From: Urbifossiella limnaea
GTDB lineage: Bacteria; Planctomycetota; Planctomycetia; Gemmatales; Gemmataceae
NCBI RefSeq assembly: GCF_007747215.1
Contig: NZ_CP036273.1
Span: 5,192,322-5,256,321 of the forward strand
Reading direction: 5' to 3'
DNA: 64,000 nucleotides
Numbering within the stretch: the stretch's first letter is position 1; each line of letters begins with the position of its first letter. Of the stretch, positions 29,089 to 31,040 are shown one piece after another. Both the position numbers and the translations under genes were made by a program. The notes beneath the pieces are model-generated. The model saw nothing but the letters and a program-made list of their open reading frames with translations, made no database searches and was not told where the DNA came from.

Positions 29089-29862
29089 ATGGCCGCACGT
29101 AAAGACCCGCCCGCGCCGCCCGCCCGCCCCCTCATCGGCATCAACGCCGAATTCTTCAACCCGAAGAACGGCACCGCCCACCTGAAGCTCAACGCCGCGT
29201 ACCTCGACGCGGTCATCGCCGCCGGGGCGCTGCCGGTCATCATCCCGCCGCTCCGCAAGGACAACCTCGCCGAGATCGACGCCCTGCTGGACACGGTGTG
29301 CGGCGTCATCCTCACCGGCGGCGCCGACATGGACCCGCGCCGCAACGGCCAGGCGCCGACGGCCGCGGTCACGCCGATGGCGGCGCGCCGCGAGGACGCC
29401 GACCGCTACCTGCTGGCCAAGATTTTCGAGCGGAAGACGACGGTGCTCGGCATCGGCCTCGGGATGCAGCAGCTGAACGTGTTCGCCGGCGGCACGCTGT
29501 ACCTCCACCTGCCGGCCGAGAACCCGCGGGCGATGCCGCACTACGACCAGACCGGCGCCCCGCACCGGCACATGGTGCTGATCGAGCCGAACACCCGGCT
29601 CGACGAGATCTACGGCGCCCCCGAGCTGCGGGTGAACAGCCAGCACCACCAGGCGGTGAACCAGCTCGGCAAGAAGATGCGCGTCGCCGCCCGCGCCCCG
29701 GACGGCGTCGTCGAGGCGATCGAGAGCACCGACCCGACCTGGTTCTGCGTCGGCGTCCAGTGGCACCCCGAGGCCGACACCGCCAGCGCGCTCGACGGCC
29801 AGATTTTCGAGTGCTTCGTGCAGGCCGCCGTCCGCAGCGCGGACGAGCTGGTGGCGGCATAA
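29089..29862 (+). CDS. C26-type glutamine amidotransferase homologue lacking the catalytic Cys
   Basis: A 257-residue protein of the gamma-glutamyl-GABA hydrolase (PuuD-like, peptidase C26) class I amidotransferase family, with GGAGGG before the ATG. The family fold is clear: LIGINAEFF, ILTGGADMDP, GMQQLNVFAGGTLY, VNSQHHQAVNQLG and GVQWHPEAD with the His-Glu of the triad. The nucleophile elbow, normally GICRG, reads GIGLG: residue 123 is Gly (codon at 29455-29457). Without the Cys, glutamine hydrolysis by the usual mechanism is not possible, so this is likely a binding protein or a pseudoenzyme. It lies 2 bases before the AnmK homologue and probably shares its transcript. Confidence 0.85.
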   Translation: MAARKDPPAPPARPLIGINAEFFNPKNGTAHLKLNAAYLDAVIAAGALPVIIPPLRKDNLAEIDALLDTVCGVILTGGADMDPRRNGQAPTAAVTPMAARREDADRYLLAKIFERKTTVLGIGLGMQQLNVFAGGTLYLHLPAENPRAMPHYDQTGAPHRHMVLIEPNTRLDEIYGAPELRVNSQHHQAVNQLGKKMRVAARAPDGVVEAIESTDPTWFCVGVQWHPEADTASALDGQIFECFVQAAVRSADELVAA

Positions 29863-29864
29863 CC

Positions 29865-31040
29865 GTGTCCCGCGTACTGGTCGGTCTCGCCGTCGGCTCC
29901 GGGCTCGAAGGGGCCGACGCCGCGGCGGTCCGCTGTCCCGGCGTCGGCCTCGCGCTGACGCCGGCCGTGCCGAAGGCCGTGCGCGTCCTGTTCCCGCCCG
30001 CCGCCCGCGACCAACTCCGCCCCGGCGCCACGCCCACGCCGGAACTCGTCCGCAACGTCGCCGACACGCTCGCCCACGCAACGCGAACCGTCCTGGTTCA
30101 GGCCGGCGTGTCGGCCCGCGACGCCTTCGTGGCCGGGCTACTGCCGCCCGCCCGCGCCGCCGACAACCTGATCCCCTGGGCCGAGGTCGCCGACCGCGTC
30201 GCGGAGCAGACGGGCGTGAGCGTCGTCCACGGCTTCCGCGGCCGCGACCGTGCCGCCGGCGGCGCCGGCCAGCCGATCACCGCCGCGGCCGACTTCCTGC
30301 TGCTGAAGGCCGACGCCGAGGACCGGGTGCTGGTCCACCTGGGGTCGGTCGTGCAGGTCGTCCACGTCCCCGCCGGCGGCAAGCTCAAGGACGTGACCGC
30401 GTTCGAGGCCGGGCCGGGGAACCAGCTGCTCGACGCGATGGCCTACCACGGCACCCGCGGCCGCGACCTGACCGACCCGGGCGGCAAGACCGCCGTACAG
30501 GGCCGCCTCCGCGACGAGCTGCTGGCCCGCTGGCTCGACCACCCGCACCTGACGCGGAAGCCGCCGAAGGCCGTCCACGCCGACGCCTTCGGCCGGTCGT
30601 TCCTCCTCGCCGCGTTCGACGCCGCCCGCCAACTCGGGGCGGGTCTGCCCGACCTGCTCTGCTCCGCGACGCACCTGGTCGCCCGCGCCGCCGCGGCGCA
30701 AGTGCCGCCGGCGACCGGCCCGCGCCGCGTGCTGCTCAGCGGCGGCGGCGTCCGCAACGGCTTCCTGTGGCAGCGGCTCGCGCACGAGTTCGACGGCACC
30801 ACGGTCGGCCGCACCGACGACGCCGGCCTGCCACCGCTGGCGCGGAACGCCGCCGCCGCGGCGGTACTCGCGGCGCTGACGTGCGACGGCGTGCCCGGCA
30901 ACCTTCCCGTCTGGACCGGCGCCGCGGGTGGCCGCTTGGTCGGCCAGCTCGCCCCGGGCGACGGCCGCAACTGGGCGCGGCTCCTCGCGTGGGCTGCGGA
31001 CCAGACTGCCGACGTGCCCCGAGCCTCGCGGGCGGCGTAA
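29865..31040 (+). CDS. Anhydro-N-acetylmuramic acid kinase homologue with altered active site
   Basis: A 391-residue AnmK-family protein. Start is a GTG at 29865, two bases after the preceding stop. AnmK kinases open anhydro-MurNAc with ATP during cell-wall recycling. Family landmarks seen are GRDRAAGGAGQPI, FEAGPGNQLLDAM, LLSGGGVRNGFLWQRL and PGNLPVWTGA. However, the N-terminal phosphate loop, usually MSGTSLDG, is degraded to AVGSGLEG, and the catalytic Asp of the (F/Y)DxGPGN motif is Glu (residue 181, codon 30405-30407). The LNIGG segment is HLGS. Activity as a kinase is therefore doubtful, although Glu might still act as the base. It sits between the Cys-less amidotransferase homologue and a DUF58 gene. 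Confidence 0.8.
   Translation: MSRVLVGLAVGSGLEGADAAAVRCPGVGLALTPAVPKAVRVLFPPAARDQLRPGATPTPELVRNVADTLAHATRTVLVQAGVSARDAFVAGLLPPARAADNLIPWAEVADRVAEQTGVSVVHGFRGRDRAAGGAGQPITAAADFLLLKADAEDRVLVHLGSVVQVVHVPAGGKLKDVTAFEAGPGNQLLDAMAYHGTRGRDLTDPGGKTAVQGRLRDELLARWLDHPHLTRKPPKAVHADAFGRSFLLAAFDAARQLGAGLPDLLCSATHLVARAAAAQVPPATGPRRVLLSGGGVRNGFLWQRLAHEFDGTTVGRTDDAGLPPLARNAAAAAVLAALTCDGVPGNLPVWTGAAGGRLVGQLAPGDGRNWARLLAWAADQTADVPRASRAA

Follow-up and report, generated by a model that had tools for sequence, protein, structure and literature searches.

An AnmK-like protein without the kinase signature and its nucleophile-less C26 neighbour: a probable pair of pseudo-enzymes in Planctomycetia

Introduction

Does a gene annotated as 'anmK' still encode an anhydro-MurNAc kinase when the residues of the kinase reaction are gone, and, if not, what might its product do? 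This question is raised by a gene of Urbifossiella limnaea (Gemmatales), located in a stretch of 64,000 nucleotides that we call here the window (contig NZ_CP036273.1, positions 5,192,322 to 5,256,321). In AnmK, a catalytic Asp serves as the general base and an HGQT loop plays a role in sugar binding. The window gene and the sites discussed below are the following, in window coordinates:

29865..31040, + strand: AnmK-like gene with the kinase signature lost, 391 aa, GTG start
29889..29912, + strand: AVGSGLEG (aa 9-16), where the phosphate loop MSGTSxDG is expected
30336..30347, + strand: HLGS (aa 158-161) replacing NxGG, with His158 where canonical AnmK has an invariant Asn
30405..30407, + strand: GAG codon for Glu181, which takes the place of the catalytic Asp within FEAGPGN (aa 180-186)
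30660..30674, + strand: CSATH, with Cys266 and His270 (clade consensus DLLCTATH), conserved in the clade described below and wholly or nearly absent from canonical AnmK

Results and discussion

An AnmK fold without the AnmK signature

The E. coli motifs MSGTSLDG, NIGG and YDTGPGN aligned with AVGSGLEG, HLGS and FEAGPGN of the window protein, so that the three changes read in a first-pass annotation made from the letters alone (MSGTSxDG to AVGSGLEG, LNxGG to HLGS, and the catalytic Asp to Glu, E181) were borne out; alignment with relatives showed that the HGQT loop is missing as well. The protein scored 152.3 bits with the Pfam AnmK family (PF03702; cut-off 24) but stayed below the equivalog cut-offs of the NCBIfam AnmK models, the best of 14 giving 191.6 versus 387 bits. 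A second, canonical anmK, for which the same annotation had proposed a search, was not found: the window gene is the only PF03702 match in the U. limnaea genome, a single contig of 7.8 Mb with an estimated completeness of 97%.

The AlphaFold2 model of the protein (mean pLDDT 92.7) had AnmK structures as its best PDB matches (Z 42-44 over 340-351 residues, 2.4-2.7 Å; 43.8 to 3cqy and 42.4 to 3qbx), and it has the ASKHA fold of AnmK. The likeness to canonical AnmK extends over the whole fold and the PF03702 match, with 26-28% identity in the structural alignments, whereas the catalytic Asp, MSGTSxDG, the Asn of LNxGG and HGQT are all lacking. The fold is also shared with levoglucosan kinase (PDB 4zlu and 4yh5, Z about 41), an active fungal kinase, although identity to the latter is only ~21%.

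An old clade of Planctomycetia

PF03702 matches occurred in 61 of 95 genomes of the family, 67 of 102 of the order and 252 of 391 of a sample of the phylum. In a careful tree of 62 rows, a single branch with 100/100 support split off 42 rows including the window protein, which was thereby placed outside the canonical AnmK clade; 15 canonical rows grouped together (98/92), as did five divergent rows from the phylum (100/100), and an earlier quick tree of 82 rows agreed. This phylogeny, which the first-pass annotation had named as a check, shows a separate clade with members in Gemmatales and several other families of the class Planctomycetia. Some genomes of one family (f4) carry a canonical AnmK with its Asp in addition to a clade member, which indicates that we are dealing with an old paralogue, more than just an orthologue that has worn out. 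The f4 clade members (L109-L114, L146-L151) are more diverged, and the long branches of g37 and f4 make the inner order of the clade uncertain.

The changes in the window protein cannot be ascribed to chance or sequencing error, since the same or similar ones are found in the same and neighbouring genera and close relatives are under purifying selection. We likewise dropped the reading that the window protein alone is degenerate, its relatives showing the same changes. None of the 42 clade rows of the tree has an unaltered MSGTSxDG, whereas the catalytic Asp persists in nine of them and requires at least six changes on the tree, which argues that this position is not under its usual constraint. 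Asp loss was considered as the defining trait of the clade and abandoned, as deep members retain the residue; the trait common to the 42 rows is the altered phosphate loop.

Constraint that moved elsewhere

We compared 83 proteins of the window clade with 61 others, namely the E. coli protein and 60 from the rest of the phylum (a set made up partly of best-scoring matches and partly of sequences hand-chosen from low-score or same-class genomes), setting aside gaps and missing ends position by position and using E. coli numbering. The catalytic Asp was present in 57 of 57 others but in only 10 of 83 clade members, where Glu (43), Gln (14), Pro (6) and His (5) were the other main residues and Met, Thr and Asn also occurred. 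Further residues told the same way: Thr13 in 57/58 others versus 2/83 clade members, Asn167 (the Asn of LNxGG) in 57/57 versus 1/83, Arg134 in 58/58 versus 25/83, and His97 in 55/58 versus 4/82. Residues that look structural were retained in the clade, namely Asp137 (78/83), Pro190 (83/83) and the first Gly of GGGxRN (80/81), as was the Thr of the TGA motif (70/81).

These counts bear on whether the clade members may still be kinases acting on a changed sugar or another substrate, with Glu as the base. Glu is the commonest replacement and could act in that way, which speaks against a complete loss of the reaction; the GGGxRN Gly and TGA Thr are kept; and five deep-branching members, all those fetched from f90, f92, f96, G598 and a Pirellulales MAG (L196, L197, L201, L188 and L218), retain the Asp and could still be kinases. 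However, a base mechanism would not permit a clade-wide spread of Gln, Pro, His, Met, Thr and Asn at the position, and the altered phosphate loop and the near-complete loss of the LNxGG Asn, together with the loss of HGQT in the subclade of the window protein, makes a surviving kinase unlikely in our judgement.

The clade has also acquired conserved residues of its own. His158, Gln212, Trp223, Cys266, His270, Arg357 and Trp370 (window numbering) are found in 81-96% of its members and 0-3% of the others, with Cys266 at 93%, His270 at 88% and His158 at 81%, versus 0-2% for these three in other AnmKs. Members from f4 lack part of this set, including the Cys266/His270 motif. The broader claim of the first-pass annotation, that the protein has ceased to be an ordinary AnmK and taken on a different role, gains support from the phylogeny, the residue survey and these new residues; its scope was too narrow, the trait being that of a clade and not of this protein, and it missed the neighbour described next.

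The upstream gene has lost its nucleophile

Immediately upstream of the AnmK-like gene, the window contains:

29089..29862, + strand: gene of a Cys-less peptidase C26, PuuD-like class I glutamine-amidotransferase-like protein, 257 aa
29455..29457, + strand: Gly123 codon of the C26 protein, replacing the nucleophile Cys (VLGIGLGMQ; xCxGxQ in other C26)
29764..29766, + strand: His226 codon of the C26 protein; this His of the triad is kept (QWHPE)

The stop codon of this gene lies 2 nt before the start of the AnmK-like gene. Its product matched Pfam Peptidase_C26 with 189.1 bits against 20.5, and its AlphaFold2 model (mean pLDDT 84.3) had PuuD 6vtv as best PDB match (Z 30.1, 239 residues, 2.3 Å). 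With the PuuD/SpuA gamma-glutamyl hydrolases (PDB 6vtv and 7d50, Z 28.6-30.1) it shares the fold, the triad His226 and Glu228, and the VNSxHHQ motif, but differs from them by a Gly instead of the nucleophile Cys.

This replacement is a group trait. Among 112 non-identical close relatives, the nucleophile position held Gly in 106, Ala in five, Ser in one and Cys in none, whereas 93 of 95 lower-scoring C26 sequences had Cys, with one gap and one Gly, the latter probably being, by arithmetic, a truncated member in locus L055. Cys was present in each of the 30 C26 proteins that we fetched from the phylum's other classes. Across 80 named C26 loci, Cys was found in 62 and Gly in 18, all 18 being planctomycete records. 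The Cys-less group nonetheless keeps the triad His (99%) and Glu (88%) as well as the VNSxHHQA motif, and conserves Arg106, Asp153, Arg160, Glu179, Trp218 and Leu235-Asp236, residues found in at most 28% of other C26 proteins. Judging from their sequences, the constraint on the AnmK-like and C26 proteins is shifted as well as relaxed.

The C26 alignment matched 241 of 248 genomes of the class at 1e-40 or better; 235 of these matches were at 1e-87 or better, which is the range of the Cys-less proteins as read from the match rows, and six were at 1e-41 to 1e-51, this class-wide tally being one of match scores, with the nucleophile residue itself read in the fetched sequences. In two loci (L042 and L052), the Cys-less gene has another C26 gene next to it whose Cys is intact.

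A conserved gene pair with one member often absent

When the 248 class genomes were searched with the clade alignment, 99 gave a match and 70 of these were assigned to the clade. In 67 of the 70, the AnmK-like gene came immediately after the C26 gene in the same orientation, with a median distance of 134 bp between the matched parts of the two genes. Of the three exceptions, G001 and G093 gave no high-scoring C26 match, the gene of G093 being truncated close to the start of a contig, and G412 had no C26 gene within 5 kb; the AnmK-like genes of G001 and G412, with no C26 gene found beside them, count against the pair model proposed below. By comparison, canonical or weak AnmK matches adjoined a C26 gene in none of the 23 genomes, out of 29, for which both positions were listed.

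The reverse dependence is much looser. No AnmK-like gene followed the C26 gene in 34 of 40 loci examined, 14 of which were chosen for genomes without a Pfam AnmK match and 26 for family diversity. Because the AnmK-like gene is missing after the C26 gene in many genomes, the latter appears to encode the core of the module, a protein that can work alone.

Further conserved operon genes were sought in the lineage of the window and none was seen: when the loci of relatives were searched with ten window proteins, matches were obtained with the C26 and AnmK-like proteins alone. In 25 loci of several families outside Gemmatales, a gene resembling KAS III by its sequence (at L147:7651-8853, for example) lies divergently beside the C26 gene. 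Fusion of the AnmK-like and C26 genes was considered for four loci with long open frames (L033, L036, L054 and L153) and rejected, the two parts being in different frames.

Both genes are under purifying selection. Over 12 pairs of close genomes, the AnmK-like gene gave dN/dS values of 0.063-0.177 and the C26 gene values of 0.007-0.128, the window AnmK-like gene itself having no relative close enough to be among the pairs. By this measure, both proteins are functional. The known motifs are lost and the AnmK-like gene is absent from many relatives, as would be expected of a decaying remnant kept by chance, but the dN/dS values, the confident fold, the maintenance of the pair across many families and the newly conserved residues contradict this explanation and render it very improbable.

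Could the pair instead carry out a new reaction, at a catalytic site built from such AnmK-like residues as Cys266, His270 and His158, or from a rebuilt elbow of the C26 protein? The strong conservation of these three residues in the clade would fit such a site, as would that of Arg106, Asp153, Arg160, Glu179, Trp218 and Leu235-Asp236 in the Cys-less C26 group. Nevertheless, the f4 members have the gene pair without the Cys/His motif, and we regard a new catalytic activity as quite unlikely.

MurNAc salvage and lytic transglycosylases

The U. limnaea genome encodes the MurNAc-6-phosphate etherase MurQ (374 bits versus 302), fused to a BadF-type kinase domain. The fusion gene lies in a cluster resembling one for MurNAc salvage (L168, C1:746500-751500), between a sodium:solute symporter gene and a GHL10 hydrolase gene. 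By inference, the fusion protein could handle MurNAc without AnmK, a kinase that need not then be missed. If the AnmK-like protein worked with MurQ, the two should be associated across genomes; in 95 Gemmataceae, they were not, MurQ occurring in 24 of the 63 genomes that have the AnmK-like gene versus 14 of the 32 that lack it (Fisher p = 0.66, uncorrected for relatedness and completeness). In two g21 genomes (L176 and L177), the Cys-less C26 gene and a MurQ gene are neighbours on opposite strands; we weighed a link between the C26 and MurQ genes on this basis and rejected it in view of this orientation and because it is not general.

Lytic transglycosylases of the MltG (PF02618) and SLT (PF01464) types were sought in the U. 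limnaea genome and gave no match, so that anhydro fragments may not be made in this organism. This bears on a more specific possibility, in which the two proteins would together sense a muropeptide, the AnmK-like one holding the anhydro-MurNAc end and the C26 one the gamma-D-Glu of the same fragment. Retention of the AnmK fold and, on the C26 side, of the substrate motif VNSxHHQA, His226 and Glu228 would agree with it. Besides the lack of a match to these two transglycosylase types, the loss of the HGQT loop tells against it, and C26 proteins act on many gamma-glutamyl compounds. We consider this sensor, a subset of the explanation preferred below, to be distinctly improbable. The sensor of wall fragments suggested in the first-pass annotation would likewise be one possible form of that explanation.

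Two probable pseudo-enzymes, one possible module

The explanation that we favour, with somewhat better than even confidence, is that these are two co-conserved pseudo-enzymes working as a pair, the AnmK-like protein having given up the ancestral kinase reaction to become a partner subunit of the upstream C26 protein. We base it on three observations on these co-conserved neighbours: both have lost catalytic residues, both are under strong selection, and both have gained conserved residues of their own. The AnmK descendants of this old clade in Planctomycetia would have given up the anhydro-MurNAc kinase reaction and would each partner a PuuD-like hydrolase lacking the nucleophile Cys. Found almost throughout the class, the C26 protein would be the core, with the AnmK-like protein, missing from many genomes, as an accessory. 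The intact conservation of both genes across the class points to a putative shared new job. We infer that neither protein would perform its ancestral chemistry and that the two may form a non-catalytic heteromer, adjacency alone being no proof of binding. That such a heteromer would bind a ligand and regulate something is our guess. A muropeptide, with anhydro-MurNAc and gamma-D-Glu parts, would suit as one ligand for both ancestral pockets, but the ligand may be quite different, as the window protein's own clade has lost the HGQT loop.

Partial precedents exist for such an arrangement. In TsaB-TsaD, a non-catalytic protein of the ASKHA fold is the partner of another ASKHA protein; the AnmK-like protein would likewise be a non-catalytic ASKHA partner, but that of a C26 protein. 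Another likeness is found in the metformin hydrolase MetCaCb, described as a pseudoenzyme-enzyme pair in which the subunit lacking catalytic residues is the binding partner (PMC11271267). There, one subunit stays active, whereas here both have lost the residues of the ancestral reaction. We found no paper on the AnmK-like/C26 pair in the open-access literature searched.

The peptidoglycan system of planctomycetes is unusual and partly dispensable, and their wall metabolism is unusual too; in Planctopirus limnophila, one study reports most peptidoglycan synthesis genes as not essential (PMC10632474). An 'anmK' annotation in Gemmatales is no proof of anhydro-MurNAc recycling. We tentatively suggest, as a less probable extension of the pair, that this class-wide two-protein module of Planctomycetia might act in the cytoplasm as a receptor or regulator of a new kind, with cell-wall fragments as a possible ligand. 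A near-universal protein without its nucleophile, together with a partner that descends from a kinase of wall recycling, would provide a testable handle on the fate of wall fragments or gamma-glutamyl compounds in these bacteria.
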